From a virus: a stretch of DNA of 20,616 nt. Below the pieces are notes generated by a model. That model ran no database searches. It saw nothing but the letters and a program-made list of their open reading frames with translations, and was not told the origin of the DNA. The position numbers were made by a program, and so were the translations under genes. Shown in pieces: positions 8,057 through 20,616 of this stretch (within the stretch, counting starts at the first letter, position 1; each line of letters starts with the position of its first letter). The DNA lies in IMG/VR virus record IMGVR_UViG_3300037071_003609, positions 1-20,616 of that record; one strand, written 5' to 3'.

Positions 8057-8247
8057 CGCAGACGGAGTTCAACAATTTGCCGGGGTTGCTCACGTTGAGT
8101 GTGTTTCGTGAAGTCACGGGGTTGAGCAAAGAGAACGTGGGGCAGTTGGTGAAGAGCAAGGAGTTGAAGGTGTGGATGGCGCGGCAGGACGGGCGGCGCC
8201 GGTTTTACAAGTCGGACGCGGCGCGGATTGCGGGCTTTAAGCTATGA
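8053..8247 (+). CDS. Helix-turn-helix protein, candidate small terminase or regulator
   Basis: 64 aa, in ATGA overlaps on both sides. It reads as a small MerR/excisionase-like winged helix: LTLSVFREVTGLSKENVGQLVKSKEL is a helix-turn-helix, and RQDGRRRFYKSDAARIAGFKL is the wing plus final helix. No other small terminase is seen next to the large subunit, so this DNA-binding protein is a candidate for that role. Equally it could be an excisionase or a regulator. The HTH is seen; the role is inference. Confidence 0.7.
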   Translation: MTQTEFNNLPGLLTLSVFREVTGLSKENVGQLVKSKELKVWMARQDGRRRFYKSDAARIAGFKL

Positions 8248-8594
8248 ATACATTCACACAGGCAGCGGCGGTGCTCGCGTTGAAAAAGATGTTCACGCAA
8301 AACTATTTCGACATCTGCACGATCGACTCGCTGGTGAAGGCCTCGGGCGTGCTCGTGCCGCCGGAAACGTATGCGGCGTGGCGTCTGTTGCATTGCGTGC
8401 ATTACGACACGATGTCGCCGGAATTTCGCGCGGCGTTGATGGAGCAAGTGATCGAGACATTCAAGGCCGGGCCGGCTTTCGACGTGAACCGGTTGAATGA
8501 GATTGCCGGCTGCACGGCCTACCTTGAACCGCAGGAATCGAAATCGACCACGCTCGTCATTGTGCAGAAGGAGCGGAAGTGGTTGCCGTGGTGA
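8244..8594 (+). CDS. Small protein before portal, unknown
   Basis: 116 aa, starting in an ATGA overlap. It is helical in its first two thirds (VPPETYAAWRLLHCVHY, then FRAALMEQVIETFKAG) and ends in TTLVIVQKERKWLPW. No domain is recognised. The stop codon lies within the first bases of the 46-bp repeat, and a 92-base gap to the portal gene follows. It could be a connector or packaging accessory protein by position only. Confidence 0.66.
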   Translation: MNTFTQAAAVLALKKMFTQNYFDICTIDSLVKASGVLVPPETYAAWRLLHCVHYDTMSPEFRAALMEQVIETFKAGPAFDVNRLNEIAGCTAYLEPQESKSTTLVIVQKERKWLPW

Positions 8595-8636
8595 TCAAAG
8601 GAAAGTTGGTCGGGTTCGGTCGGGTTCGGTCGGGTT
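8591..8636 (+). repeat. 46-bp direct repeat, copy 1, with three 10-bp iterons
   Basis: This stretch is identical over 46 bases to 12567-12612. It begins GTGATCAAAGGAAAGTTG and runs into three tandem copies of GGTCGGGTTC (8608-8637), one unit per helical turn. Copy 1 overlaps the stop codon of the upstream gene and lies about 50 bases before the portal start. The repeated sequence, the helical phasing and the place ahead of large late genes suggest a protein-binding or late-promoter element. Confidence 0.85.
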
Positions 8637-8637
8637 C

Positions 8638-8686
8638 GGCACACTGCGTGTGGTGCCACTATTTGGTTTTGGTGTAAACGGCGCTC
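8638..8686 (+). other. Leader between repeat and portal gene: weak hairpin and half-palindrome
   Basis: A short imperfect hairpin, GGCAC...GTGCC (8638-8657), is followed by a T-rich stretch and then GTGTAAAC (8672-8679). That octamer equals the left half of the 16-bp site at 10823, but the right half is absent. No clear -35/-10 pair or Shine-Dalgarno precedes the portal ATG. Confidence 0.35.
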
Positions 8687-10822
8687 ATGCGAGAACGGCA
8701 TCCGAAGTATCGGGAGAACGCGACGGCGGAACCGGACATTAATTTGTTGAAGGAGGAATTCGAGTGGGCGGTGGAGAAGCGGGACTCGAATTATTTCACG
8801 CGCAACCGGATCAATTACAACACGCGCCGGTGCATTTGGCCCAATCAATCGTCGGACGGCCGGAAGTGGGCGGCCTACAAGGGGCAGGAGATTTTTCCAT
8901 GGAAGGGCGCGAGCGACGCGCGCGTGCCGTTGGTCGACATGTATATCAACGAGGACGTGGCCAAGCTCATGGTGGTGTGGCGGCGCATGAAAATTCTCGT
9001 GAGCGGGACGGAAGCAAACGACCACAATTTTGCCAACCGAATGACGCAGGTGTTGCGCTGGATGAAGTACACGCAGATGCGCGAGGCGCGCCGGGAAATG
9101 CGGTTGCTCTGCAATTACATGCTCGAGCGCGGGGCGGCCGCGCTGGGCGTGTGCTGGGAAAAGAAGCGGCAACTGGGTTACGAAACGATCGACCTCGAGA
9201 CGATCCAGGGGGCGGCGATGGAAGTCCAGCAGGGGCAGATCGACGGGTTGCCGCCGGGCATGGAACCGGACGAGCTCATGGAATTGCCGGAGCTGATCCT
9301 GAGGCCGAACCAGGAGAAGCGCGCGGTCGCCATCGCGCACAAGTTTTATCCGGACGTGACGAAGGAACGATTGACCAAGGCGGTCCGCGATTTGCGCACG
9401 ACCGGGACGGCGCGTTTTCCACGGCCGTATGTGGTGCGGAATCGGCCGGTCATGACCGCCTTTGCGTTGAATGAGGATTTGTTCATCGCGCCGGAAGCGA
9501 TGGACATTCGCGACGCGCGCACGATCGACCGGTTGGAGCTGCTGACGGAAACGGACTTGCGCGAGCGCATCACGGGATCGGACTGGAGCCCGGGCTGGGT
9601 TGAGGAAATGATCGAGTTCCAGCGCGGCAAGGTGCCGATGAATTTCCACGGCCAGGTGTTGCGCGCCAATCTGCTGCGATCGACGGGCCAGGGCACACTG
9701 AACACGGACAAGTTGTTTGCGGTGGTGCACGGCTACCGACGCCGACATGACGCGGAGGGCGTGCCCGGTTTGTATTACACCTGTTATTCGCCGTTCATGA
9801 CCGAGAGCTACGCCTATCACGCGCTGCTCGATTATGACCATGGCGAAAATCCGTTTACGCTGTTCGAGCGCGAGACGCTGAGCCGAGGCCTCGATGATTC
9901 GCGCGGCGTGGGCGAATGCCTGCACACGCACCAGCAGCATATCAAAGCGGAATGGGACGGGCGCATTGACCGCTCGAGCATCGCGACGTTGCCGCCGTTC
10001 TATCATCCGGAAGGCCTGGCACCGGAGAACTGGGGCCCGGGCGTGAAAGTGCCGACGATGCGGCCGGATGATTACGGGTTTATGGCGACGCCAAAGTACG
10101 ATCCGGGCAGCGCCGAGGTGCAACAGTTCGTGGGGCGTTTCGCGGCGCGTTACGTGGGCCGGCCGGTGGACGAGGAGAACGTTGTCGAGTCGCAGATCAT
10201 GGGGCAGGACCAGGCGGACAATTTCATGGGGAACGTGGGCGAGGCGGACACGCAGATCCTGAAGTTGATGCAGCAATACATGCCCGAGAATTTTTATTAT
10301 CGGGTGGTGGGATCGAGCAAGGCGAAGAGCATCCGAGCCACACGCGAGGAAATCCAGGGCCAATTCGACGTGGCCGTGGGTTACAGCGTGGGCGACCTGA
10401 ATCCGGAACAGGTAAAGGCCAAGCTGGATTACATCGAGAAGGCGCTGCAGTGGGACGTGACCGGACGCATCGACCGCGACGCGGTGTTGGAACTGGGCTT
10501 TGATTTGATCGACCCGAACATGGGAGAGCGGGTGTTGCGCCCGGCGCAGGAGGCCGCGCAGGCCGAGCTCGAGGACGAGGACAGCGTGCTGTCGCGCATG
10601 GCGACAGGGATCGGCACGAACATCAAGCCGGGCCAGGCGTATCAAATGCGCCTGCAGCGCTTGCAGCAACGACTGATGAACAGCCCGAAACTGCAGCAGC
10701 AATACCAGCAGGACGAGACGTTCAAGGAGCTCGTCGACACGCGCGTGAAACAGTTGAGCCACCAGCTCGAGCAAAAGGAGAATGCGCGCATCGGAGTCCT
10801 GGGCGGGCAGAGCATGAGTTGA
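8687..10822 (+). CDS. Portal protein
   Basis: 711 aa, close to the size of large P22-like portals. It has the typical portal features: an early LLKEEFEWAVEKRDSNYF and FPWKGASDARVPLVDMYI stretch, a long mixed alpha/beta body with repeated Trp/Tyr motifs, and a Gln-rich helical C-terminus (RLQQRLMNSPKLQQQYQQD) such as builds the barrel. It forms the dodecameric ring at one vertex, through which the terminase pumps DNA and to which the tail attaches (family knowledge). It follows terL and precedes the scaffold and capsid genes, in the canonical order. The start ATG at 8687 has no obvious Shine-Dalgarno. A 16-bp palindromic site begins directly at its stop codon. Confidence 0.8.
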   Translation: MRERHPKYRENATAEPDINLLKEEFEWAVEKRDSNYFTRNRINYNTRRCIWPNQSSDGRKWAAYKGQEIFPWKGASDARVPLVDMYINEDVAKLMVVWRRMKILVSGTEANDHNFANRMTQVLRWMKYTQMREARREMRLLCNYMLERGAAALGVCWEKKRQLGYETIDLETIQGAAMEVQQGQIDGLPPGMEPDELMELPELILRPNQEKRAVAIAHKFYPDVTKERLTKAVRDLRTTGTARFPRPYVVRNRPVMTAFALNEDLFIAPEAMDIRDARTIDRLELLTETDLRERITGSDWSPGWVEEMIEFQRGKVPMNFHGQVLRANLLRSTGQGTLNTDKLFAVVHGYRRRHDAEGVPGLYYTCYSPFMTESYAYHALLDYDHGENPFTLFERETLSRGLDDSRGVGECLHTHQQHIKAEWDGRIDRSSIATLPPFYHPEGLAPENWGPGVKVPTMRPDDYGFMATPKYDPGSAEVQQFVGRFAARYVGRPVDEENVVESQIMGQDQADNFMGNVGEADTQILKLMQQYMPENFYYRVVGSSKAKSIRATREEIQGQFDVAVGYSVGDLNPEQVKAKLDYIEKALQWDVTGRIDRDAVLELGFDLIDPNMGERVLRPAQEAAQAELEDEDSVLSRMATGIGTNIKPGQAYQMRLQRLQQRLMNSPKLQQQYQQDETFKELVDTRVKQLSHQLEQKENARIGVLGGQSMS

Positions 10823-10838
10823 GTGTAAACGTTTGGAC
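10823..10838 (+). promoter_or_regulatory. 16-bp near-palindrome, site 3 (after portal)
   Basis: GTGTAAACGTTTGGAC, two mismatches from the consensus. It fills most of the 24-base gap between the portal stop and the next gene. Confidence 0.65.
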
Positions 10839-10846
10839 GAATTTGC

Positions 10847-11236
10847 ATGAAGAGCAAACGGAATACGACGCGCGTAAACGCGCAAAAGGAAACGCCGGCC
10901 GCGGCCGTGGCAGAGGAGAGAGCTGCGGCCGCGCCGCCGCGGGGGACGTATGCGCGCGCGATGGCGGAGGCGAAAACGATGGATCCGCAGGAGATGGCGG
11001 CCACGCTGCGATTGCTGGCGATGGATCCGCGGTTTGCGGCGGTCCTGGCCTTTCTGTGGATGCGCCGGGAAAGCTACGTGAAATCGGCGAGCGCGCAGAA
11101 GTTCGCCACGCATCACGGTGTGCTCGCCCATGGCATGGGCAGCGTGAATGCGCTCGACGACACGATTGAAGCGACGCGGGCATTTTATGCCGTCGCGCGC
11201 GTCACGGGCGGGATGCAGAAGCCCCAGGAGGATTAG
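10847..11236 (+). CDS. Small protein after portal, unknown
   Basis: 129 aa. A basic, Ala-rich N-terminal tail (about 1-35) leads to a helical core with DPQEMAATLRLLAMDPRFAA, then FLWMRRESYVK and LDDTIEATRAFYAVARVTGG. The start ATG at 10847 follows the palindromic site at 10823-10838. An overlapping frame starting at 10819 was discarded. By position it may be a head accessory protein. No family is recognised with confidence. Confidence 0.66.
   Translation: MKSKRNTTRVNAQKETPAAAVAEERAAAAPPRGTYARAMAEAKTMDPQEMAATLRLLAMDPRFAAVLAFLWMRRESYVKSASAQKFATHHGVLAHGMGSVNALDDTIEATRAFYAVARVTGGMQKPQED
11226..11231 (+). promoter_or_regulatory. Strong Shine-Dalgarno AGGAGG
   Basis: AGGAGG lies 9 bases before the ATG at 11241, and it fixes that start. 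This is unusual in the window, where most genes lack a clear Shine-Dalgarno or rely on overlap with the gene upstream. Confidence 0.75.
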
Positions 11237-11240
11237 CCCG

Positions 11241-11498
11241 ATGCCGTCGCGATACATGACCACGGAGCAGCGGGAGATGAAGAATTGCAAACGGCACACC
11301 TGTTCCCGTTGTGGCGCGACGTTCAGTTGCAAAACGAAGTGCTGGGCGCACATGGACAATGATTGCCCCAAAAGACCGAATTTAAGCGCGGGGACTTGCG
11401 AGACGGTAACGTCCGCAGACGTGGAAGCCGTAACCGATGACTACGGCCAGTACGTAAGGGGGTCCTCGCGCTTTGCACTTGGCCACAAAGGGACGTAG
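11241..11498 (+). CDS. C2HC zinc-finger small protein
   Basis: 85 aa from the ATG at 11241, chosen over earlier in-frame codons because of the AGGAGG 9 bases upstream. Residues about 21-42 form a classical-type finger, CSRCGATFSCKTKCWAHMDN followed by DC: C-x2-C-x12-H-x4-C with Phe at the usual core position. The C-terminal half is less structured and ends RGSSRFALGHKGT. It probably binds nucleic acid or a protein partner. A strong terminator follows its stop, so it is the last gene of the transcript that passes the portal. Confidence 0.68.
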   Translation: MPSRYMTTEQREMKNCKRHTCSRCGATFSCKTKCWAHMDNDCPKRPNLSAGTCETVTSADVEAVTDDYGQYVRGSSRFALGHKGT

Positions 11499-11508
11499 CC
11501 ATACGGGA

Positions 11509-11551
11509 GAGCGGCGGGGTCGACGTGGAACTCACCTCGCCGCTCTTTTTT
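11509..11551 (+). terminator. Intrinsic terminator
   Basis: A 12-bp stem (GAGCGGCGGGGT at 11509-11520 pairing with ACCTCGCCGCTC at 11534-11545, with one G-T pair) has a 13-base loop and is followed by TTTTTT. It closes the transcript carrying the portal and the two small genes after it. Confidence 0.88.
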
Positions 11552-11555
11552 GGCT

Positions 11556-11589
11556 TTGACAAGATTTTTGGAGTGTCTGATTCTATTGT
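11556..11589 (+). promoter_or_regulatory. Candidate sigma-70-type promoter, leaderless
   Basis: A perfect TTGACA -35 (11556-11561) is followed at 17 bases by a weak GATTCT -10 (11579-11584). TATTGT (11584-11589) is an alternative but at a long spacing. The next ATG is only 7-12 bases further on, with no Shine-Dalgarno, so a leaderless transcript would result. It lies straight after a terminator. Confidence 0.5.
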
Positions 11590-11595
11590 CACCCT

Positions 11596-11883
11596 ATGGA
11601 AAGTCATGTGACAGCAAAGGCGGAGTGCCCCGAATGTTTCTATCAAGTGGACCGCGCGGCCGGATTACAGGATCCATCGTTGAGGCCTGATCCGGGCGAC
11701 GTAACCCTGTGCTTTAATTGTGGCGCGATTCTGGTGTTTGAGGAGGCGGACCAGGTGCGCCAACCCACAGAGGAGGAGCGCATTGAAGCTGAAAGACATA
11801 AGGTCCTCATGCGTTACCGCCGGATCCTGCTGCAGGACATAGCAGCACGCAAACGCGAGGGCAAATTGCCGAAAAGCCGATGA
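11596..11883 (+). CDS. Zinc-ribbon small protein, first gene of cargo-like block
   Basis: 95 aa. Two CxxC pairs, CPEC near residue 12 and CFNC near residue 39, are typical of a zinc ribbon. The C-terminal half is a charged helix (TEEERIEAERHKVLMRYRR). The ATG at 11596 is kept because the candidate promoter ends only a few bases upstream. It opens a block bounded by two terminators and ends in an ATGA overlap with the next gene. The function is unknown. A regulator or an adaptor to host RNA polymerase would fit the ribbon-plus-helix form, but this is speculation. Confidence 0.7.
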   Translation: MESHVTAKAECPECFYQVDRAAGLQDPSLRPDPGDVTLCFNCGAILVFEEADQVRQPTEEERIEAERHKVLMRYRRILLQDIAARKREGKLPKSR

Positions 11884-11984
11884 AGGTTTTTCTAATTCTC
11901 GGAACGCTCGCCAGTGTGCTGTGGTTTGCCTGGGCGACGCGGGAGCTGCGACGGGTGCGCCGGCAACGGAAGGGGCAGCGATGA
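11880..11984 (+). CDS. 34-aa single-pass membrane peptide
   Basis: The start overlaps the previous stop (ATGA) and the end overlaps the next start (ATGA). The sequence is a hydrophobic N-terminal helix (VFLILGTLASVLWFAWA) followed by a strongly basic tail (RELRRVRRQRKGQR), so it is a membrane-anchored peptide with the tail probably in the cytoplasm. The overlaps on both sides argue for a real gene. Small phage membrane peptides of this shape can act in superinfection exclusion, lysis or as toxins; none is shown here. Confidence 0.6.
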   Translation: MKVFLILGTLASVLWFAWATRELRRVRRQRKGQR

Positions 11985-12112
11985 ACCCGCACCAACGAAG
12001 AGCGATCGAGAATCATTGCCGGCTCGCCGGCGAAACGTTACAGCCCAAGTTTGCCCGACTGTTACCGAGTGGAATCACGATCGTGCTGACCGTGAACTCG
12101 GGTTACGAGTGA
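11981..12112 (+). CDS. 43-aa small protein, unknown
   Basis: Starts in an ATGA overlap with the membrane-peptide gene and ends six bases before the next start. The sequence is basic at the N-terminus (MNPHQRRAIENHCRLAGE), then hydrophobic/beta-like (LLPSGITIVLTVNSGYE). The layout supports it more than its content does, and no family is recognised. Confidence 0.5.
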   Translation: MNPHQRRAIENHCRLAGETLQPKFARLLPSGITIVLTVNSGYE

Positions 12113-12118
12113 CTGGAG

Positions 12119-12406
12119 ATGAATTTCGGCGGGCCCGTGTGGCACGCCAGTGCAGCCCATGCTCCGGAGCGCCGCTTGAAAGCGACGGTGGTCGACGAGT
12201 TGGCCGGAGTTGGAGACGCGGGCCTGGGCGAATGGCATGAATGGAGCGGCAAGGCGTATCACGTGCGCCGGCGTTTGAGTGAGGACGAGCAAAAGCTCGT
12301 CGGGCCAGTCATCGACATTAGGGGCACAGTCGAAGCCACCATGCGATTGATGCCAGTGCAGCGAATACTGCCGGCCAATTGGGGCGAGTATCGAAAGGGC
12401 GGATAG
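12119..12406 (+). CDS. Small protein, unknown, last gene of cargo-like block
   Basis: 95 aa, starting six bases after the previous stop, with CTGGAG just upstream as a weak Shine-Dalgarno. The content is mixed, with several Trp residues (HEWSGKAYHVRRRLSEDEQKL) and a C-terminal VQRILPANWGEYRKGG. No domain is recognised. It closes the block between the terminator at 11509 and the terminator-like hairpin at 12515. Confidence 0.6.
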   Translation: MNFGGPVWHASAAHAPERRLKATVVDELAGVGDAGLGEWHEWSGKAYHVRRRLSEDEQKLVGPVIDIRGTVEATMRLMPVQRILPANWGEYRKGG

Positions 12407-12427
12407 AATTTTTCGTGCGGTGCAGAA

Positions 12428-12468
12428 GGCCGGCGGGTCCCGCCTAAAGTGAAAACCTGCCCGCGGCC
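12428..12468 (+). other. Strong hairpin, possibly part of a small RNA
   Basis: GGCCGGCGGG (12428-12437) pairs with CCCGCGGCC (12460-12468), giving 9 bp with one bulged G. A competing smaller palindrome, GGCGGGTCCCGCC, is nested at 12432-12444. No U-tract follows, so it is not a simple terminator. Confidence 0.5.
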
Positions 12469-12514
12469 GGGTGGTCAGAGTGCAACGTGTTTAGCGTCAC
12501 CCCACCGGACGAGA

Positions 12515-12562
12515 GCGGCGCGCTGAGCGGCTAAAGCAACCTCCAGCGCGCCGCATTCTTTT
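12515..12562 (+). terminator. Probable intrinsic terminator
   Basis: A perfect 11-bp stem GCGGCGCGCTG / CAGCGCGCCGC (12515-12525 with 12544-12554) has an 18-base loop and is followed by ATTCTTTT. The sequence before the stem, GAGAGCGGCG, is shared with the terminator at 11509. It ends the four-gene block before the scaffold gene. Confidence 0.72.
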
Positions 12563-12566
12563 GTAC

Positions 12567-12612
12567 GTGATCAAAGGAAAGTTGGTCGGGTTCGGTCGGG
12601 TTCGGTCGGGTT
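12567..12612 (+). repeat. 46-bp direct repeat, copy 2, with three 10-bp iterons
   Basis: Identical to 8591-8636 over 46 bases, with units GGTCGGGTTC at 12584, 12594 and 12604 (the last base of the third differs). It begins 4 bases after the terminator's T-tract and about 107 bases before the scaffold start. That is where transcription would have to restart for the capsid genes. Confidence 0.85.
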
Positions 12613-12718
12613 TGGGACAGGGGGTCTTGCACGGTTGCGCTGCTGCGCAGTAAGAGCGCGGGTGTGAGCAACAAACCATACGGACGCTTAAAAATGTAGC
12701 GGACGAGGAAATGCACCC

Positions 12719-13963
12719 ATGAAAACCCAAGCCACTAATACACCCAACACCTCCACTGCTGCCGCGCCTGCTCCTGAAGCCGGCGCGGCGGCGAGCAACG
12801 GCAAGCCTGTAACTAAGTCGGGCCGAGTCGTCGCAGAACCGGAGAGTGACAACATGAGTCTCGCGGATTTAGCCGCAGGATTCACAACCAAACGTGCTGC
12901 TGCGACCACAGCGGCCACTGGTGGGAAAGGTGGGAAGGGAAACAAAGGTGCGACAGCTCAAGCAGCCGCAGAGGTGGAAACCACAGAGGAGGAACCTGTC
13001 CAGGGTGAAGAAGAACAGCCCGAGACGGAAACCGAAGTGGAAGCCACGAGCGAAGCAAATGAAACAGAGGGTGAAGGGACCGAGACGACCCAGGGCGAGG
13101 AAGGCCAAGAGGGCGAGGGCGAAGGATCGGAAACCGAAGGCGAAGACGAAGGCGAGGAACAGCCGGCCACCGCCAAGGAGTTGGAAAAGAAACTCCGAAA
13201 AGCGGCGAAGCGGATCGACAAGTTGACCGCGCGTTTACGTGAAGCCGAAGCGGGTGCGAATGCGCCGGCAAATGGCGAGACGGAACAGCGGCCGAGTGGC
13301 GATCAAGTGCTGGCGCAGCTCGAGAGCAACCTGGCGGTGTTGGAAAACGCGTTGACGTGGGTGGATGAAAACCCGGAAGGGGGCGAGTACACCGACGAGA
13401 AGGGCAACAAGCGCGAATTCACCGCGGCCGAGGCCCGCAAGATCCGGCGCAATGCTGAGTATCAGCGGACCGAGTTGCTCACGGCGAAAGCCGCGCGCAA
13501 GCAGGCAGTGCAAGCCGCGTACGCGAAAGAGCAGACCACGGCGCAGAAGGAATTCGAGCGCGCGTATGCAGAACTCGCGGACGAGGACTCCGAAACGCCG
13601 CAGGCCGTCGAGTATCGCCAAACGATCCAGATGGCCGCGCCGGCGCTGAAGCAATTCCCAGATTACAAGCTGTGGATTGCGGACGCGATTGCCGGCCGCG
13701 CTGCACGCCTGGCCAAAGTCGCGAAAACCAATGGCACGAACGGGAAACCGGGCGTGCGTGCATTGGGCGCGCCGATGACAAGGCCCAAGGGATCGACGGA
13801 ACCACCCAATGTTGTGACACGGCCGGCCGCGGGAGCAACGCGTGTAGACGCGAAGCAGAAAGCGGTGCAGGACGCGGAAAAGGACTTCGCGAAAAGCGGC
13901 AGCACCGAAGATTTAGCAAACCTGTTCTCCCGGAAAAAGCAGGCGCGGTTACAGCCTGCGTAA
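12719..13963 (+). CDS. Probable scaffolding protein
   Basis: 414 aa. The N-terminus is Ala/Thr/Pro-rich and unstructured (about 1-85). A very acidic Glu/Gly/Thr tract (about 85-148) follows, then a coiled-coil-like region (KELEKKLRKAAKRIDKLTAR and the next helices, to about 300). The C-terminus is basic (LANLFSRKKQARLQPA). This acidic/helical protein with a basic tail, directly before the capsid gene, is the classic scaffold layout: it guides prohead assembly and then leaves. No sequence family was matched, so the call rests on composition and place. GAGGAAA upstream of the ATG is a weak Shine-Dalgarno. Confidence 0.72.
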   Translation: MKTQATNTPNTSTAAAPAPEAGAAASNGKPVTKSGRVVAEPESDNMSLADLAAGFTTKRAAATTAATGGKGGKGNKGATAQAAAEVETTEEEPVQGEEEQPETETEVEATSEANETEGEGTETTQGEEGQEGEGEGSETEGEDEGEEQPATAKELEKKLRKAAKRIDKLTARLREAEAGANAPANGETEQRPSGDQVLAQLESNLAVLENALTWVDENPEGGEYTDEKGNKREFTAAEARKIRRNAEYQRTELLTAKAARKQAVQAAYAKEQTTAQKEFERAYAELADEDSETPQAVEYRQTIQMAAPALKQFPDYKLWIADAIAGRAARLAKVAKTNGTNGKPGVRALGAPMTRPKGSTEPPNVVTRPAAGATRVDAKQKAVQDAEKDFAKSGSTEDLANLFSRKKQARLQPA

Positions 13964-13965
13964 AA

Positions 13966-13980
13966 GCCACCGAGCGTGGC
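13966..13980 (+). other. Small hairpin between scaffold and capsid genes
   Basis: A 5-bp stem GCCAC / GTGGC with a CGAGC loop sits just after the scaffold stop. An A-rich leader (AGAAAAGAACGAAC) then runs into the capsid ATG. It may protect or tune the abundant capsid mRNA. Confidence 0.4.
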
Positions 13981-14000
13981 GGAAACAGAAAAGAACGAAC

Positions 14001-15005
14001 ATGAATGTAAGCAGTTATTTGCCCGGAACAGTGGGCGGTAATCGCGAGGACCTTCGAGGGCCGTTGACGATCCTCGAGCCGGAGGAAACTCCGTTCACCT
14101 CGACCATCAAGAAGGGGCCCGCGCCGAAATCGACGCTGGTTGAAAAGGGCGCGGACCGGCTGCGCAAACCCCGCACGAGCGGCACGCGCGAAGGCGCGAG
14201 CGGTGCGAAAGGCGGCAACAAAGCATTGAAGCGTGCGCGCTTCGGCAGCTACCTGCATCGCTGGCTCGAGCCGTTCGGCGTGACCGACGTGCAGCAGCTC
14301 ATCAGCGAGAACGGCGGCAACGCGTTCACCGCGGACGAATACGGCACGTCGAAGGCCAAGACGGTGCGCGAAATCAAGCGCGACATCGAAGCGACCAATT
14401 GCGGCGGCCAGGACGGCCAGGGCGGCAGCGATGACGAGATGAAGAGCCGGGGATTCTTCAAGTGGCTCGCGGCGACGCAGACGCCACAGATTCCGGACGA
14501 CTTCCTGTGCCCGGCGACCCAACGCCTGACGGGCCAGGCCAACCTCGTCGAGTCCGGCGCGAACAGCCTCAACGGTGTCTTGAAGGCGATCAAGAGCCGC
14601 GTGGGCGGCCGGCCGACCCTCGATGGCATCTGTGGGAACGACTACCAGGAGAACGCGGACATTTTCACGCGGACCGGCCCGGAGTCGACGTATTCGCGGT
14701 ATCGCGTGAGCGAGAGCGCGGACCGTCACGAAATCACGCTGATGGTGAAAGTGTTCAGCTCGAGCTTCGCGCGGGTGAACCTGATCCCGAGCGAGTTCGT
14801 GAACATCGACGCCGCCGGCGACGGCAATCCGAAGGCGATCATGCTGGTGAACCGGCCGTTGTGGGAGCTGCTCTTCCTCGACGAGCTGCACGCCAAGGAT
14901 GGCGACGAGGACGCCGGCGGCCAGGACGGCTATGTGAAAGCGATCGGCGGGCTCTTCTGCTCCGAGCCGCGCGGTAACGGGTTCATCGTCAACACGTTGA
15001 ACTAA
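14001..15005 (+). CDS. Major capsid protein, SU10/DUF5309-like
   Basis: 334 aa. The N-terminus NREDLRGPLTILEPEETPFTS, followed by TIKKGPAPKSTLVEK, is the signature of the SU10-type major capsid family (DUF5309; HK97 fold as known for the family). The size is normal. The C-terminal half carries the long beta-strand and loop region (STYSRYRVSESADRHEIT, then NLIPSEFVNIDA). The pattern scaffold, capsid protein, small head protein supports the call. An A-rich leader, not a Shine-Dalgarno, precedes the ATG. It would be the most abundant phage protein in infected cells. Confidence 0.85.
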   Translation: MNVSSYLPGTVGGNREDLRGPLTILEPEETPFTSTIKKGPAPKSTLVEKGADRLRKPRTSGTREGASGAKGGNKALKRARFGSYLHRWLEPFGVTDVQQLISENGGNAFTADEYGTSKAKTVREIKRDIEATNCGGQDGQGGSDDEMKSRGFFKWLAATQTPQIPDDFLCPATQRLTGQANLVESGANSLNGVLKAIKSRVGGRPTLDGICGNDYQENADIFTRTGPESTYSRYRVSESADRHEITLMVKVFSSSFARVNLIPSEFVNIDAAGDGNPKAIMLVNRPLWELLFLDELHAKDGDEDAGGQDGYVKAIGGLFCSEPRGNGFIVNTLN

Positions 15006-15045
15006 CAGGCCGCACAACTCAGCAACCAAGAAAGAACTAGACGAA

Positions 15046-15531
15046 ATGAGACATTACAAATTGCGAGGCGCGCAGAGCGCGGTCCTCGCCGGCCTGACAG
15101 ACCTGTGGGTCATCACTCACGCGGACCTGACGCAAGCCACGGTCGCCACCGACGAGGTGGAAGACTTGGACGCGGTCGAGTTCGGCGACATCGTGTCGTA
15201 CGACTGCTTCATGCAAATCCTCGTGCCGTTTACCCCGCAGCCGAGCGCGGACGCGGGCTTGAACGTGACGCTGGGCGTGAACGGTGCGTTGACCCAGTTC
15301 ATCGGCAACAGCGCACTCATGGCGGCCGGCGTGGCCACCGCAGCCAAAACGGCCTATGTGCCGGTGGCGGCGGGTGTGCCCTACGCGGTGCCGACCGGCG
15401 GTAAAACGTTGCAGGCCAACTTCGACATCACCGATGCCGATGGGGCCCTCGCGACGTTCACCGCGGGCGAGCTCGCGATCGGCATGCGCATCCAGCGCTA
15501 TAGCGAGCTGTTCGGCCAAGCACAACTGTAG
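15046..15531 (+). CDS. Probable head accessory or decoration protein
   Basis: 161 aa, mostly beta-rich and Ala/Val/Gly/Thr-rich, without cysteine pairs or membrane segments. It follows the capsid gene, where decoration or head-fibre proteins usually lie. Motifs such as GLNVTLGVNGALTQFIGNSA and LQANFDITDADGALATFTAG suit a beta-sandwich. The leader AGAAAGAACTAGACGAA before the ATG resembles the A-rich leaders of the capsid gene and of the gene at 17062. The decoration role is inferred from place. Confidence 0.65.
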   Translation: MRHYKLRGAQSAVLAGLTDLWVITHADLTQATVATDEVEDLDAVEFGDIVSYDCFMQILVPFTPQPSADAGLNVTLGVNGALTQFIGNSALMAAGVATAAKTAYVPVAAGVPYAVPTGGKTLQANFDITDADGALATFTAGELAIGMRIQRYSELFGQAQL

Positions 15532-15541
15532 TCCACCAACG

Positions 15542-15557
15542 GTGCAAACGTTTGGAC
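15542..15557 (+). promoter_or_regulatory. 16-bp near-palindrome, site 4 (before 15542 gene)
   Basis: GTGCAAACGTTTGGAC, one mismatch from the consensus. It overlaps the GTG chosen as the start of the gene there, and a 12-bp hairpin follows 8 bases later. Confidence 0.65.
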
Positions 15558-15955
15558 ACAACAAGAGGACCGCTCCGAAAGGGGCGGTCCTCGATCCTAA
15601 CGGGACGCCGTGCCGCAATCCCAACTCGCAGGCCGTGCCGCATATCTTCATTCCGAAACTCACCGAGGTGGTGCGCTGGGACGAGTGGATGTGGAGCGAG
15701 CTGCGGGAGGGCGGGTATCTGCACGAATACTTGCGACGGGAAAAGGCGCTGAGCGTGCGGCGGCAGCGTGCGGTGAGCCGGAAGGCCTCGCGGGTGAAGC
15801 CCAAGGGCGATTCCGAATGGGAATGCAAGGCAATGGTCCCCGCCCGGGAATTTTTTCGCTGGCGGGAGCAGGACGAACATTTTTGGGACGATGACAGCAA
15901 CCTCAAGAGTTTGAAGCGGGACAATCCGGACCTGGCTCCCGCGATCTTTGTCTAA
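15542..15955 (+). CDS. Small head/neck-region protein, unknown
   Basis: 137 aa if it starts at the GTG at 15542, which overlaps the palindromic site; a GTG at 15635 would give 106 aa. Residues DPNGTPCRNPNSQAVPHIFIP look like genuine coding sequence, so the earlier start is preferred, though no Shine-Dalgarno is seen. The rest is Trp- and Arg/Glu-rich (TEVVRWDEWMWSELREGGYL, later FFRWREQDEHFWDDDSNLK). A strong hairpin lies within the first 17 codons. The stop TAA overlaps the next ATG by one base. The function is unknown. Confidence 0.62.
   Translation: MQTFGHNKRTAPKGAVLDPNGTPCRNPNSQAVPHIFIPKLTEVVRWDEWMWSELREGGYLHEYLRREKALSVRRQRAVSRKASRVKPKGDSEWECKAMVPAREFFRWREQDEHFWDDDSNLKSLKRDNPDLAPAIFV
15565..15592 (+). 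other. 12-bp hairpin with GAAA tetraloop
   Basis: GAGGACCGCTCC (15565-15576) pairs with GGGGCGGTCCTC (15581-15592), with one T-G pair, across a GAAA (GNRA-type) loop. No T-tract follows. It lies 8 bases after a 16-bp palindromic site and inside the 5' end of the gene as called from 15542. Confidence 0.7.
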
Positions 15956-17016
15956 TGCGACGCGTTAGTTACAAAACGATTTTGCAGAGCGCGAGCCAGC
16001 TCTGGACCGGCGAGAGTGTGCCAACTCCGGACGACGCGGGCTCGCTGAACGTGTTTATCAATCAGCGCGCAGGCGAGTTTTGGGGAACGTTTTGGTTTCC
16101 GGAAATCACGCCGGCCGAGCAACGGCAATTTCGCGCAGACTGGGCGACCGGGACCAGCTACGCCGCACCCACTGCGACGACGGCCGTCGAGGTCTACTAT
16201 CCGCGCGCGCGGAAATACTACCAGAGTTTGCACAGCGCGAACCTGGGCAACGCGCCGGCGACGGGCACGGCGTTGACCGAGAACAGCGCGCACTGGGCCG
16301 AGAGCAAGGCGGAGTATTCCGAGGACAAGGAATGGAACACGGGCGTGGTGTTCATCGTGGGGCAGAAGACCAAGAACCCGGATGACCAGCGCTATTACCA
16401 GTGCCACACCGCGCACACGGCCGGCGCGAGCTTCGACGCGACCAAGTTCGGGATCCTGACGCCGTTTGTGCGGGACATCGACTATGAGCAAACGCTGGCG
16501 GCGGTGGTGAAAACGCCGATCGGCGAGGTGCGCGATGTGTGGGACAAGGATCCGAATGTCTATGAGAGGTTTCAGCTCTGCCGGATCAAATTCGATTTGA
16601 CCACGCTGGGCGTGATCGTGCGCGGCGAGCTGCCACTGGTGTGGATTGAATTTCGTCTGTGCGTGCCGAGTTGGACCGCGACCGTGACGCCAGCGCAGCA
16701 CAGCCTGGCCACGACCTACGGGCTGGCGGCGCGGGTGTATGACGATACCGAGGGGGATTATTTCACGAGTTTGCAGGCGGGGAATTTGAACCATGTGGTC
16801 ACAGACACCGCGTGGTGGCAGCGCATTGAAATTCCGTACGTGCTGCGGGACGCGGTGCCGCAAGCGGCCTATGCCGACATGCTGCGGACCGATGGACAGA
16901 CCGAGAAGCACGGCGTCGAGCTGGCGCGCGCGCGGGAGTTGTTGCGGAGCGAGATCCGGAAGATCGAGCTGCTGCAGGGACAAAGCCGCCAAATGAATGT
17001 CGTGGGAAGGAACTAA
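15955..17016 (+). CDS. Structural protein with carbohydrate-binding-like repeats
   Basis: 353 aa. The N-terminus (SLNVFINQRAGEFWGTFWFP, then EITPAEQRQFR) looks like a recurring phage head-tail/neck protein type. Three weakly similar modules follow, each with an aromatic core: VEVYYPRARKYYQSLHSANL with GNAPATG...AHW (about 75-120), DQRYYQCHTAHTAGASFD (about 143-165), and YFTSLQAGNLNHVV...AWWQRIE (about 265-295). They resemble chitin-binding type-3-like folds. The C-terminus is an acidic/basic helix (ELARARELLRSEIRKIELLQ). It may join the tail to the head or touch sugars at the cell surface; both are inference. The ATG overlaps the previous TAA. Confidence 0.62.
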   Translation: MRRVSYKTILQSASQLWTGESVPTPDDAGSLNVFINQRAGEFWGTFWFPEITPAEQRQFRADWATGTSYAAPTATTAVEVYYPRARKYYQSLHSANLGNAPATGTALTENSAHWAESKAEYSEDKEWNTGVVFIVGQKTKNPDDQRYYQCHTAHTAGASFDATKFGILTPFVRDIDYEQTLAAVVKTPIGEVRDVWDKDPNVYERFQLCRIKFDLTTLGVIVRGELPLVWIEFRLCVPSWTATVTPAQHSLATTYGLAARVYDDTEGDYFTSLQAGNLNHVVTDTAWWQRIEIPYVLRDAVPQAAYADMLRTDGQTEKHGVELARARELLRSEIRKIELLQGQSRQMNVVGRN

Positions 17017-17021
17017 AGACC

Positions 17022-17042
17022 GGACGTCGCGGCGCGCCGTCC
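17022..17042 (+). other. Hairpin in leader before 17062 gene
   Basis: GGACG (17022-17026) pairs with CGTCC (17038-17042), with two inner pairs (CG/CG) and a small internal mismatch. It is followed by an A-rich leader (GAGAAAGAGAACAAA) into the ATG, much as before the capsid gene. Confidence 0.4.
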
Positions 17043-17061
17043 TACCGAGAAAGAGAACAAA

Positions 17062-17631
17062 ATGTTTAACACGAATATCGCAGCGGAACTGATGGGGCTG
17101 ACGCCGGCGGCGGCGCGGCAGTTCGTCAAGACGGTGGCGTCATCCGCGACGCCGGAACGATTGACGCAGCGGGCGGTGAGCAGCCTGGCCGTGGTTGTGG
17201 CTACGCGGGTGGTGACCGTGACGACGGGCGTGGCGCACGAGTTCATTGTGGGCGACCAGGTGACCATCTCCGGCGCGAACGAAACGGAATACAACAAGAC
17301 GTTCACGATCGAGACGGTGCCGAGCACCACGACGTTCACGTTCACCATGCCGGCGCGCGAGACGGCGTATGCGAATGGGACCGGGACGATTGTGGCCGTG
17401 GGCGAGATTTGGTTTCGCGCGGCGACGTTCCTCGGGCGCAACGCGGTGCGGACGCCGAACACGGGCAACGTGTGGATCGGGCCGAACAGCGCGAACGACA
17501 CGCAGCCGTTTGTGATTGGGAGCGACGGCGAAGTGGGGCTGCCCGCACCGACCGGGACGCGGTTGAACGCGGCGCAATGGTATATCGACGTGGCGACGAA
17601 TGCGGACGGCGCTGTGATTCTGTTTTTCTGA
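17062..17631 (+). CDS. Beta-rich structural protein
   Basis: 189 aa. After a short helical N-terminus, residues about 48-100 (VTVTTGVAHEFIVGDQVTI, SGANETEYNKTF, TTTFTFTMP) have the pattern of a small beta-sandwich or beta-barrel module found in tail and baseplate proteins. The C-terminal part (GNVWIGPNSANDTQPFVIGS) looks beta-rich as well. It is probably a virion protein. Exact role unknown. The A-rich leader and hairpin upstream match those of other abundant structural genes. Confidence 0.6.
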   Translation: MFNTNIAAELMGLTPAAARQFVKTVASSATPERLTQRAVSSLAVVVATRVVTVTTGVAHEFIVGDQVTISGANETEYNKTFTIETVPSTTTFTFTMPARETAYANGTGTIVAVGEIWFRAATFLGRNAVRTPNTGNVWIGPNSANDTQPFVIGSDGEVGLPAPTGTRLNAAQWYIDVATNADGAVILFF

Positions 17632-17641
17632 AGGCTGCCCG

Positions 17642-18064
17642 ATGCTGAGAACCATCACCAAACTGAGCGGATACACGCTCCCGATCTGGACGGGCGCGGC
17701 CTACACGCCGCTGGACGCGGCCACGTTTGTGTTTGGGATGGAATTAAGCGGCACCGCGCCGAGCTATAACGCGGCCGCCATCGCGATTCCGAAAGCGGGC
17801 GTTATCAAGCGCGTGGACTACGTGCTGCGGATCGTGACGACGCTGGCGAGCAACGAGAACGTGCAGCATTTCCTGCGGATCAACGACACCACGGACGTTG
17901 GGCTGGTGAACACGACGTGGGACGCGGTGCATCGGGCGTTTAGCGCGACGCCGAACACGCCGGTGAACGCCGGCGATTTTGTGGCGGGCAAGGTGGTGTG
18001 CCCGACCTGGGTGACGAACCCGGCAGGGGTGACGGTGCGCGGGCTCATCTACATCGAACCATAA
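17642..18064 (+). CDS. Small structural protein, unknown
   Basis: 140 aa, ten bases after the previous stop, with GAAGG upstream as a weak Shine-Dalgarno. The sequence is rich in beta-strand residues and small amino acids (YTPLDAATFVFGMELSG, then WVTNPAGVTVRGLIYIEP). No family is recognised. It is followed two bases after its stop by the LamG gene, suggesting a shared role in a tail or fibre structure. Confidence 0.58.
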   Translation: MLRTITKLSGYTLPIWTGAAYTPLDAATFVFGMELSGTAPSYNAAAIAIPKAGVIKRVDYVLRIVTTLASNENVQHFLRINDTTDVGLVNTTWDAVHRAFSATPNTPVNAGDFVAGKVVCPTWVTNPAGVTVRGLIYIEP

Positions 18065-18066
18065 AA

Positions 18067-18888
18067 GTGTTGATCACGATAAAACCAACAGCGCGCGCGA
18101 CGCGGATCCTGGGCGGCCGAGTGGACAGAGCCGCTGTGCTGCACACGGTGAACCGGGACGCGGGCGAGACGGTGGCGTTGCTGAACGGCTTGGTGAGCTA
18201 CTGGACCCTGGGCGAGGCGAGCGGCGAACGGGCGGACTCGCACGGGGCGCACCCACTGACGGACAACAACACGGTGAGCAATGCCACCGGGCACCACGGC
18301 AGCGACGCCGTGGCGGCCTCCTTTGGCGCTCCGAGTGGCGAATACCTTTCAGCGGCGGACCACGCGGACTTCGACTTTACGACGGGGTTTTCAGTGTCGG
18401 CGTGGATCCTGATGAACACAGCCATCAACAACATGGCGATCATCTCGAAGTTCAACCATGGGGGCAATCAATGCTCCTGGGTGTTTCAGACTTCGCCCAC
18501 GGTGCAGTCGTCGGGCGGCTTTCGAGTGTTCATCGCGGACGTGATCGGCGACGACGGCAACAATTTCGCCACCTACGACAGCGCGCCGCTGGTGAATGGT
18601 AACTGGTATCACGCGGTGCTCGTGTATGACGGAACGTTGGCGGAGGCCGACCGGGTCAAGGTGTATCAAGACAACGTATTACTTGCGCCAACTGGGAAGA
18701 CAGGGACGTGGGCTGCGTCACTCCAAAACAGCACGGCGGAGCTGCGCATCGGAGATTTTGAAAGCCTGAACCGGTTCTGGAACGGCTTGATCGACGAAGT
18801 CGCACTTTATAACCGGCCGCTCAATGCGTCGGAAGTGGCGGCCATTTGGAACGGCAGCAACGGACTGGCCTACGAATCATTCACATGA
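18067..18888 (+). CDS. LamG / concanavalin-like lectin-domain protein
   Basis: 273 aa from GTG at 18067 (TTG at 18070 possible); the frame is open further up but would overlap the previous gene. A LamG-type jelly-roll runs from residue 42 to the end: LVSYWTLGEASG, ADFDFTTGFSVSAWI, WYHAVLVYDG, VKVYQDNVLLAPTGKTG, LRIGDFESLNRFWNGLIDE, and the closing LYNRPLNASEVAAIW that typifies these domains. The first 41 residues are a short basic lead, perhaps a virion anchor. It probably binds polysaccharide on the host surface. No catalytic motif is seen. Confidence 0.82.
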   Translation: MLITIKPTARATRILGGRVDRAAVLHTVNRDAGETVALLNGLVSYWTLGEASGERADSHGAHPLTDNNTVSNATGHHGSDAVAASFGAPSGEYLSAADHADFDFTTGFSVSAWILMNTAINNMAIISKFNHGGNQCSWVFQTSPTVQSSGGFRVFIADVIGDDGNNFATYDSAPLVNGNWYHAVLVYDGTLAEADRVKVYQDNVLLAPTGKTGTWAASLQNSTAELRIGDFESLNRFWNGLIDEVALYNRPLNASEVAAIWNGSNGLAYESFT

Positions 18889-19316
18889 AAACGATCATTG
18901 TACTTCTATCGTCGGCCGTCGCCCTCGTGGCGGCGGATATTCGGTTGGCGTGGGATCCGGTGCCAGGCGTCGCCGGCTATCGCGTGTATGCCGGCACGAA
19001 TTCGCGCGCGTACACGATCGTGACGACGAATTATCCGAGCGCGGGGACTAACCGCGTGAGCGGGTTGCAGTCGGGCACGGTGTATTACTTCGCGGTGGTA
19101 TCGGTGGCCGGCGGAGGACAGGAAAGTGATTTCTCCAACGAGGTGTCCGGGATGCCGAACCCGGCCGCGCCGGTGCTGCGGATCGTGACGACGAACACGT
19201 TGCAGTCGGCGCTGAGTCCGGAGGGGCCGTGGCAGGATGAGACGAATTTTATTTTCAGCATGGCGGCGGACGGTCCGCGCCGTTTCGTGCGGACCAAGAT
19301 CGACATCACGCAATGA
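18885..19316 (+). CDS. Secreted fibronectin type III protein
   Basis: 143 aa, starting in an ATGA overlap with the LamG gene. A signal peptide is clear (MKTIIVLLSSAVALVAA, then D). An FN3 domain follows at about 19-100: LAWDPVPGVAGYRVYAG, NRVSGLQSGTVYYFAVVSV, ESDFSNEVSG. The last 40 residues (TLQSALSPEGPWQDETNF) resemble the short tail seen after FN3 in cell-surface proteins of some Verrucomicrobiota (from memory). A signal peptide on a protein amid tail genes is odd: it would be exported rather than packed in the virion, unless the host processes it later. Confidence 0.75.
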   Translation: MKTIIVLLSSAVALVAADIRLAWDPVPGVAGYRVYAGTNSRAYTIVTTNYPSAGTNRVSGLQSGTVYYFAVVSVAGGGQESDFSNEVSGMPNPAAPVLRIVTTNTLQSALSPEGPWQDETNFIFSMAADGPRRFVRTKIDITQ

Positions 19317-19408
19317 GCGCGCAGGAAGAGGCGGAGGTCCGGCGGGTGGATCGGTTGTTTGAGCTGGCGTGTCGAGCCTGGCTGGCGCGGCGCGGAGTGA
19401 GTTACTGA
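19313..19408 (+). CDS. 31-aa small protein, unknown
   Basis: Starts in an ATGA overlap with the FN3 gene and ends 12 bases before the next start. The peptide is charged and helical (MSAQEEAEVRRVDRLFELAC). Overlap and spacing support it; the content gives no function. Confidence 0.42.
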   Translation: MSAQEEAEVRRVDRLFELACRAWLARRGVSY

Positions 19409-19420
19409 AGTGAACGACGT

Positions 19421-19714
19421 ATGAACAACATCCTTGGAGCGGCAGAAGTCGAAGCGGTAACGCAGGTGGCAGAGGCGCTGGCGGGCAAGAGTGACCGATA
19501 CTTGATGATCGTTGCCATCGTGCTGCTCGTCGCTTTTTTGGTGTGGGTCGTGCGTTACATGCTGACGTGGAACGAAAAGCAGGCGGCGAAGGTGGAAGGC
19601 ATCACGGCGGAATACAACAAGGCGGTGACGCAAATGACGGTGTCCATGGACCGGAACACGGAGGCGCTGGACGGCTGCACGGAGTTCATGCGGCGCGTGG
19701 AAGGGAAACTCTAA
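19421..19714 (+). CDS. One-TM protein, candidate holin or inner-membrane spanin
   Basis: 97 aa. An N-terminal helix is followed by one strong membrane segment (residues about 27-47, LMIVAIVLLVAFLVWVVRYM) and then a charged helical tail (EKQAAKVEGITAEYNKAVTQ). The lipoprotein gene follows four bases after its stop. The pair has the look of a lysis cassette with either a class III-like holin or an inner-membrane spanin. No endolysin is seen in the window, so the lysis role is a guess from topology. Confidence 0.6.
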   Translation: MNNILGAAEVEAVTQVAEALAGKSDRYLMIVAIVLLVAFLVWVVRYMLTWNEKQAAKVEGITAEYNKAVTQMTVSMDRNTEALDGCTEFMRRVEGKL

Positions 19715-19718
19715 ATTT

Positions 19719-20171
19719 ATGAAAAAACATCTAAACGTTTGGACGGCCTCGCTCATGGCGGGGGTTTTATTGTGCATGACCGGTTGCGCAGGCCTGCAGG
19801 GAGGCAACGCCGCGGGCGAGCTCGCCTTCTGGGCGAACACGGCGGCGAACATTGGGACGCAGGAAGCGGTGCTCGAGCATCCGGAATTGCGGCCGAAATT
19901 CGAGGCGGCGCTGGCGAGCTTGAATGCGTTGGTCGACGCCGGCAGCACGGATCCGGGTGCGTTTCGCAATGTGCTGAATTCCTTGCCGGTTAAAGAGCTG
20001 AAGGGCCGGGAGGCGCGCATTGCCATCAACCTGGCGTCCATCGCGTTTTATCGCTACGGACAGAATGTGGCGCTCGATGACAAGAGTTACGTGGGCGCGG
20101 CGCTGCGGGCGGTGCGGGACGGGATCCGCGACGGCCTGGGCACGGCGGCGGCGACAACGGCGAAGAAGTAG
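19719..20171 (+). CDS. Lipoprotein, possible outer spanin
   Basis: 150 aa with a signal peptide ending in CMTGC, a lipobox-like site with Cys at residue 23, so a lipid-anchored envelope protein is likely. The mature part is helical and Ala/Leu-rich (KFEAALASLNALVDAGST, ARIAINLASIAFYRYGQN). No enzyme motif is seen. It lies four bases after a one-TM gene, as outer spanins do, but it is larger than many and lacks the Pro-rich linker of some. The 16-bp palindrome overlaps codons 4-9, so the site and the gene start share sequence. Confidence 0.6.
   Translation: MKKHLNVWTASLMAGVLLCMTGCAGLQGGNAAGELAFWANTAANIGTQEAVLEHPELRPKFEAALASLNALVDAGSTDPGAFRNVLNSLPVKELKGREARIAINLASIAFYRYGQNVALDDKSYVGAALRAVRDGIRDGLGTAAATTAKK
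19729..19744 (+). promoter_or_regulatory. 16-bp near-palindrome, site 5 (start of lipoprotein gene)
   Basis: ATCTAAACGTTTGGAC, two mismatches from the consensus. It covers codons 4-9 of the lipoprotein gene, so DNA binding there would meet the start of that gene. Confidence 0.6.
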
Positions 20172-20172
20172 A

Positions 20173-20346
20173 ATGGAAAATTCCCAAACACCCGCGCGGC
20201 CGGCCACCGAGCCGGCCGCTCGCGTGCCGGCGAGCGATGGCTGGCCGTTGGGAAGAATGCCGATCGACACGAGCGTGACGGCCGTGGCGCGCCGATCGGC
20301 AAAGCGACGTATACGGCTGGCGCGCGCGAAATTCAGAGCAGGCTAG
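20173..20346 (+). CDS. 57-aa Pro/Ala-rich basic protein, unknown
   Basis: Starts one base after the lipoprotein stop and ends one base before the next ATG. The first half is Pro/Ala-rich (TPARPATEPAARVPASDG) and the end is strongly basic (ARRSAKRRIRLARAKFRAG), like a small nucleic-acid- or protein-binding peptide. The tight spacing and shared strand support it. No function is assigned. Confidence 0.5.
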   Translation: MENSQTPARPATEPAARVPASDGWPLGRMPIDTSVTAVARRSAKRRIRLARAKFRAG

Positions 20347-20347
20347 C

Positions 20348-20616
20348 ATGGGACGTTACCGAACCAATCTAGGACTTGATGACCCCTCCTTACCGGATGG
20401 GGATGAAGAGTTTTTAGGGGTGAACCAACTCGGAGAGCCGCACGAGCTGCAGCCGGGGGAGATGAGCGACGGATTGAATTGCCGGTTTGATCAGAAGGCA
20501 TGCGATCCGCGCCTGGGCGTAGCCAAGCTGGCGTGGACGAACTTGGTTGCGACCGGCGGGACCGCTCCCCTGCCCTTCGGCACGGTCTACGGATCCGAGG
20601 TGTTCAAGGATAATGA
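20348..20616 (+). CDS. Structural protein, 3' end cut by window edge
   Basis: Open reading frame from ATG at 20348 to the right edge with no stop (at least 89 codons). Near residue 40 it reads PGEMSDGLNCRFDQKACDPR and then LGVAKLAW. That pattern is seen at the start of some phage tail or neck proteins, which use such a stretch before a long beta-rich body. Most of the gene lies outside the window, so the role is only suggested. Confidence 0.6.
   Translation, partial: MGRYRTNLGLDDPSLPDGDEEFLGVNQLGEPHELQPGEMSDGLNCRFDQKACDPRLGVAKLAWTNLVATGGTAPLPFGTVYGSEVFKDN

Follow-up and report, generated by a model that had tools for sequence, protein, structure and literature searches.

The window (the whole 20,616-base virus record analysed here, a fragment like many of its relatives) encodes, at 18885-19316 on the plus strand, a 143-aa protein composed of a predicted Sec signal peptide, an FN3 domain and a C-terminal beta-hairpin, and its gene overlaps that of a LamG protein. 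Our favoured interpretation, in which we place about even confidence, is that this FN3 protein is a small Sec-exported phage protein that, once cleaved, is either periplasmic or released from the infected cell, is not part of the particle, and most likely serves as an accessory acting on the envelope. An exported, non-virion product appeared most likely because signal-like N-termini were present on all viral-contig relatives that could be judged, and because the gene is sometimes located away from the tail genes.

Genes were called with a simple script on the plus strand, with some starts trimmed, and gene counts are therefore partial; in the relatives, adaptor, nozzle, tape measure and terminase-like names were given by eye and by position. 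Within positions 14001-20616, an SU10-type major capsid gene (PF17236, E = 1.2e-27) is followed by small head genes. An adaptor-like gene (15955-17016, 353 aa; by position and eye) and two small proteins then precede the LamG gene (18067-18888, plus strand). The FN3 gene runs from ATG 18885 to TGA 19316 and shares the bases ATGA (18885-18888) with the LamG stop, an arrangement from which we infer translational coupling. The LamG gene overlapping a signal-peptide FN3 gene, as reported in the preliminary description, was confirmed by the ORFs, the bases themselves, Pfam, AlphaFold2 and the signal-peptide heuristic described below. A 31-aa ORF (19313-19408, plus strand), which may not be a gene, overlaps the FN3 stop, again through ATGA. 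Downstream on the plus strand are genes for a 97-aa protein, holin-like by eye, that has a single TM segment and a charged tail (19421-19714), and for a predicted lipoprotein with an MTGC lipobox recognised by eye (19719-20171); a gene named neck/nozzle-like by eye begins near 20349. The LamG-FN3 pair starts about 3 kb past the capsid gene and lies ahead of the neck/nozzle-like gene, so that its original assignment to a "tail region" is correct in a loose sense. The TM protein had no confident family in Pfam or PHROG; its relatives (26-31% identical) lie 3' of the FN3 gene in phages G005 and G006, and another is present in G002. A lipoprotein-like gene also occupies the 19719-20171 slot of G002, L046 and L047, and the window lipoprotein, when used as a query, returned no relative. 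In a consensus scan of positions 16900-20616, no promoter-like site was found, which says little given that 0.9 were expected by chance; terminator-like sites numbered five, compared with 3.6 expected.

The LamG ORF extends from GTG 18067 to TGA 18888 (273 aa), with GTG 18136 as an alternative start in the scripts. Residues 91-258 matched Laminin_G_3 (PF13385) at 76.6 bits, compared with a cut-off of 27.6 bits (E = 3e-21). The product is likely a binding protein, and it perhaps belongs to the virion. "Lectin-like", the term first applied to it, is retained here as a fold-level name, with sugar binding predicted at most. No signal peptide was found in this LamG protein, and its AlphaFold2 model was too poor for use (pLDDT 45.3). 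By BLAST, it has a relative in the same gene slot of L047 (26%, 4.7e-7) and another in L039; no match at E<=1e-3 linked it with the LamG-like proteins of G002, G005 and G006, which make up a group apart. The LamG-like protein of G005 was missed by Pfam and is 31% identical to that of G006, which Pfam finds.

The FN3 protein matched Pfam fn3 (PF00041) at 24.6 bits (E = 3e-5), 0.4 under the curated cut-off of 25 bits. As modelled by AlphaFold2 (12 sequences), it forms an FN3-type beta-sandwich (mean pLDDT 80.6, pTM 0.57) with a C-terminal hairpin built from strands 99-108 and 117-127. Foldseek returned FN3 domains, with the phage T1 tail tip complex first and one match at E<=0.001 in the viral library; because no PDB entry matched the model at E<=0.001, the fold match says no more than "FN3". 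The best PHROG was a major tail protein family (1.9e-6). The N-terminus MKTIIVLLSSAVALVAA, followed by D, fits a 17-aa Sec signal (18885-18935, plus strand) with predicted cleavage before D18. Signal peptides were called in this study by a home-made heuristic and by eye, not by SignalP. In control runs, the heuristic fired at the called start of 17 of 546 genes, and it flagged 0.15% of shuffled N-termini (20 shuffles each) and 1.3% of reversed ones. It missed the G006 FN3 signal and that of E. coli MalE (misses were added by eye), and positives at G014 1813, G005 39664 and G006 29381 were doubtful. Given these control rates, a lone positive is not strong, and the layout conserved among relatives carries more weight. 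Having no Cys, the FN3 protein lacks a lipobox, and inspection by eye revealed no sorting tail; in a diderm host, Sec export alone would therefore take it only as far as the periplasm. The preliminary description had proposed export to the host surface. Export and a role outside the virion are supported by the signal-like relatives and the off-tail gene positions detailed below, but the surface location is not, and with no surface anchor visible "periplasmic or secreted" is the safer wording.

A scan of viral_contigs yielded 46 pattern matches, 16 of which encode an FN3 relative (near-duplicates being L004/L005, L007/L008 and L009/L010). The N-terminus was at least partly present, and signal-like by eye, in 14 of these 16 loci; the other two, L015 and L016, are truncated where the contig ends. 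One locus, L002 (= G014), encodes a protein similar to the window FN3 protein over nearly its whole length (best segment, 35%), and the other 15 constitute a second lineage with a different conserved C-terminus. Signal-like N-termini were also present on the FN3 relatives of G001 (two copies), G002/G007, G005 and G006, those of G006 and of the second G001 copy being called by eye only. When 23 proteins were compared by BLAST with the plus-strand ORFs of 28 sources, FN3 queries matched, at E<=1e-3, only proteins with signal-like N-termini, and the C-terminal part was conserved together with the FN3 domain in G014, G006 and G002.

The gene order LamG or LamG-like, overlapping signal-FN3 and single-TM protein recurs in G005 and G006, both of which have related capsid proteins. 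In G005 (L022), the LamG-like gene (5980-6717) is followed by the signal-FN3 gene (6714-7226) and by a TM gene from 7223, with successive overlaps. In G006 (L023), a metallophosphoesterase gene precedes a LamG gene ending at 39537; the signal-FN3 gene starts with the GTG at 39534, and a TM gene follows at 40034. Because three phages have the FN3 gene overlapping a LamG or LamG-like gene, the functions of the two may be linked. In G002, LamG-like, TM and lipoprotein genes are kept in the slot, and the signal-FN3 gene lies elsewhere (6809-7264), among small genes ahead of a terminase-like gene; in G007, a record that ends inside the capsid gene, the FN3 gene has the same early position and its product is identical. 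Likewise, in the six second-lineage loci with genes listed, the signal-FN3 gene is upstream of a terminase-like gene and outside the tail block. These positions away from the tail genes argue against a virion part. Among L003-L017, a second small FN3-like protein without a signal follows in some of the six listed loci (by eye), and the second lineage perhaps has a pair of exported and unexported FN3 proteins.

In the second lineage, NG86 dN/dS of the mature region was 0.04-0.25 over 45 pairs (from 10 of the 15 loci, which are not independent), and the mature domain is under purifying selection. The signals look mutually unrelated by eye, and all end shortly before a conserved A-G-E/D-A. The heuristic flagged four of the 10 N-termini at the starts given, two or three of which were wrongly set. 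A conserved mature part behind unrelated signals was read as a domain whose export is selected.

Related phages were drawn from capsid scans, and profile searches covered 14 records (13 capsid relatives plus G014, several of them fragments). Pfam fn3 matched five of the 14, two over the cut-off (G002 and G007), and gave nothing at E<=0.01 in the other nine; these include G014, whose FN3 gene the model misses and BLAST finds. The LamG model matched four records, three over the cut-off. In a control set of 14 well-known genomes, fn3 matched seven and LamG five. Since most capsid relatives searched show no FN3 gene, we regard it as an accessory. Against annotated phages, the best of the 18 records that the FN3 query returned at E<=10 reached E 0.3 (major tail proteins), and one weak match came from a Paenibacillus plasmid (E 1e-3). 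Scans with the G005 FN3 protein, the G006 FN3 protein and the first block protein of G014 (see below) returned their own contigs only.

Under the favoured interpretation, the LamG and FN3 genes would be expressed late as a coupled pair, and the FN3 protein would pass through the Sec pathway, lose its signal and remain in the periplasm or leave the infected cell. There the mature protein may bind a ligand on the surface or in the periplasm, perhaps the same receptor or glycan as the neighbouring LamG protein recognises. By shielding this ligand, it could prevent superinfection or keep progeny from being wasted by adsorbing to cell debris. The structural-region position, the lack of a lipid anchor and the lack of known homology to exclusion proteins were counted against shielding. 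PMC9586334 describes early expression of exclusion proteins.

Exported phage accessory proteins are already known, and the FN3 protein would be a further variant. T4 Spackle is a soluble exported exclusion protein without a lipid anchor; its gene setting differs from that of the FN3 gene. The lambda morons Lom and Bor are also exported, lom lying in the tail-fibre region and Lom being an outer-membrane barrel, whereas the FN3 protein looks soluble and its gene overlaps a structural-region gene. According to PMC9586334 and PMC12685063, phage T5 Llp and phage Rtp45 are small exported proteins that act from the periplasm to block the receptor. The FN3 protein resembles them as a small phage protein with an export signal (judged by the heuristic and by recurrence); compared with the descriptions in those papers, it differs in that both are lipoproteins and Llp is early, whereas the FN3 protein has no lipobox, an FN3 fold and a structural-region position. 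Xanthomonas phage PBR31 gp40 (PMC10975493) also has a signal peptide and resembles tail-associated hydrolases of phages, but it is an SGNH esterase encoded near lysis genes and has no FN3 domain. In Verrucomicrobia phage P8625, the gene for the LamG protein gp24 immediately follows genes annotated as tail fibre, but none of the 50 called genes was flagged with a signal peptide, and its authors report none (PMC4642752). The initial view that a signal peptide is unexpected near tail genes therefore agrees with P8625, but such signals recur in the present set.

Serial signal-peptide blocks are a more surprising part of these data than the exported FN3 accessory. G001 (L018) has, between adaptor-like and lysis-like genes, a run of six adjacent genes with signal-like N-termini (8190-14492). 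They encode two proteins that are fibre-like by eye and belong to no Pfam or PHROG family, a signal-bearing LamG protein (5.1e-21), a beta-helix protein (11933; best PHROG pectin lyase/moron, 1.7e-9; tail spike, 2.2e-5) and two FN3 proteins that close the run. The heuristic flagged four of the six and no other among 42 called genes; the other two were recognised by eye. In G014, a tape-measure phage by eye that was not returned by the capsid scans, six consecutive flagged genes (9268-13877; L002:3904-8513) follow tape-measure and tail genes (by eye) and include a LamG match (3.5e-5, below cut-off), a bacterial Ig domain (1.4e-7), a fibre-like protein (by eye) and an FN3 protein closing the run. 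Outside this block, a lipoprotein at 15555 and the doubtful 1813 were flagged among 61 called genes. The last 70-90 residues of G014 10272 are 38-43% identical to Arthrobacter and Escherichia phage proteins; because all but one of these are annotated hypothetical (the exception being a "head-binding domain-containing protein"), its fibre nature was judged by eye. G014 also has a recombinase-like gene (by eye). Neither the G001 tailspike-like protein nor the first G014 block protein had a match in annotated phages. In L045, which has the most similar capsid protein across the full length (58%), a signal-bearing tailspike-like gene (L045:13957-14356, cut by the contig end) has a GTG start that overlaps the adaptor-like stop (13957-13960); it matched tail fibre/tail spike PHROGs at 1.3e-5, and its best match (1.9e-7) was without known function. 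One flagged gene each was found in L031, L049 and L061 and two each in L038 and L046, mostly short TM proteins or lipoproteins; in L047, L054, L057 and C75C1 (plus strand) there were none. A search with exact terms in text from open-licence PMC papers, a weak test, found no description of signal-peptide blocks in tail operons. A decoy receptor-binding protein was also considered as a candidate and gained no sequence support, since BLAST (E<=1e-3) did not show the signal-bearing proteins to be copies of virion fibres from the same or related phages; matches were of the FN3-FN3 and LamG-LamG types only, the latter including one in L006 and one in L039.

We advance, as a speculative and rather doubtful extension, that apparently unrelated phages (those with the SU10-type capsid, and G014) carry in the structural operon an "export module" of serially overlapping Sec-signal genes, which would send fibre-type modules for binding and degradation (LamG, Ig, FN3 and beta-helix tailspike) out of the living cell before lysis to treat the host surface or glycans; the window would be its minimal form, in which the FN3 partner alone is exported. 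Receptor-binding modules are expected inside virions, and if the extension were true, some phages would alter the exterior of the infected cell with fibre-type proteins. This would have consequences for superinfection and progeny release, and for the reading of "tail fibre" genes in metagenomes as host-range markers.

Of the other explanations, the one that survives best, unlikely as we consider it, is that the FN3 protein and the other signal-bearing proteins of the slot are virion decoration or fibre parts, the hydrophobic N-terminus acting as an anchor or in an extracytoplasmic assembly step. The FN3 gene lies among structural genes and overlaps the LamG gene, and its product matches tail PHROGs and the FN3 domains of tail proteins found by Foldseek. 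This explanation keeps its place because tailspike- or fibre-like proteins carry signals in L045 (13957), G001 (11933) and G014 (10272, by eye), and signals on virion proteins could be normal in these phages. However, tailed virions are assembled in the cytoplasm, the FN3 gene of G002/G007 and of the six listed second-lineage loci lies apart from the tail genes, and in related phages the fibre-like genes after the neck-like gene are signal-less (by eye).

We find it improbable that the exported FN3 protein is instead a periplasmic helper of a lysis module, working with the TM (holin-like) protein and the lipoprotein that follow. Its gene precedes a TM gene in the window, G005 and G006, and in the window a lipoprotein gene as well, and the signal-bearing esterase beside the lysis genes of phage PBR31 provides a precedent (PMC10975493). 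However, the FN3 protein fell into no enzymatic Pfam family over cut-off, and G002 keeps its TM and lipoprotein genes in place with the FN3 gene elsewhere.

Less probable still is a moron, that is, a host-derived secreted protein that benefits the infected cell through adhesion or biofilm. FN3 and LamG domains are common in secreted bacterial proteins, and lambda lom is a precedent for finding an export signal on a gene of the phage tail region. CAI was low for LamG (0.568) and FN3 (0.612), but the TM (0.614) and lipoprotein (0.623) genes were equally low; the five core genes had values of 0.68-0.73, being themselves the CAI reference set. Moreover, the FN3 gene begins within an overlap, and its GC (0.620) is near that of the window (0.613). 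The suggestion that the gene was taken from a host found no backing in one low-sensitivity scan of genome_contigs, a weak test, which revealed no close host copy and three distant FN3 relatives (33-38% identity over about 60-90 residues), none of them verrucomicrobial.

Finally, it is very improbable that the signal peptide was misread from an uncleaved hydrophobic stretch or a later translation start: the call comes from the heuristic rather than from SignalP, and codon score preferred GTG 18927 in one script run and TTG 18846 in another, but ATG 18885 is favoured by the 4-base overlap, which also occurs where the signal-bearing genes of G005, G006 and L045 and eight of the 12 G001 and G014 block genes begin, and the layout recurs in relatives.

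With regard to the host, a diderm was inferred because lipoproteins and barrel-like genes occur in the slot; a verrucomicrobial host for the window phage is a guess. The window capsid protein matched that of phage C75C1 (36.5% over half, 9e-18) and, weakly, that of Cronobacter phage Ss1 (28.9%, 2e-6), and the window terminase matched C75C1 only (25.5%), for which no host is recorded. For the G014 terminase, P8625, with its verrucomicrobial host, was best by coverage (20.6% identity), and Faecalibacterium phage FP_Epona was better by E-value (24.1%, 3e-15), among 36 records of many hosts.

Other genes were noted in the same slot of related phages. The G006 metallophosphoesterase (L023:13830-15164; PF00149, 3.6e-6) lies in the structural slot ahead of the LamG and signal-FN3 genes. 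In G005, an outer-membrane beta-barrel domain (L022:7536-8276; PF13505, 2e-6, 0.1 bit below cut-off) follows a short unrelated segment in frame. A protein with a signal peptide and a barrel (about 15943-16563, by eye) is encoded in G001 outside the six-gene block. At the left end of the window, positions 6-1556 encode a protein that is ParB-like by eye.
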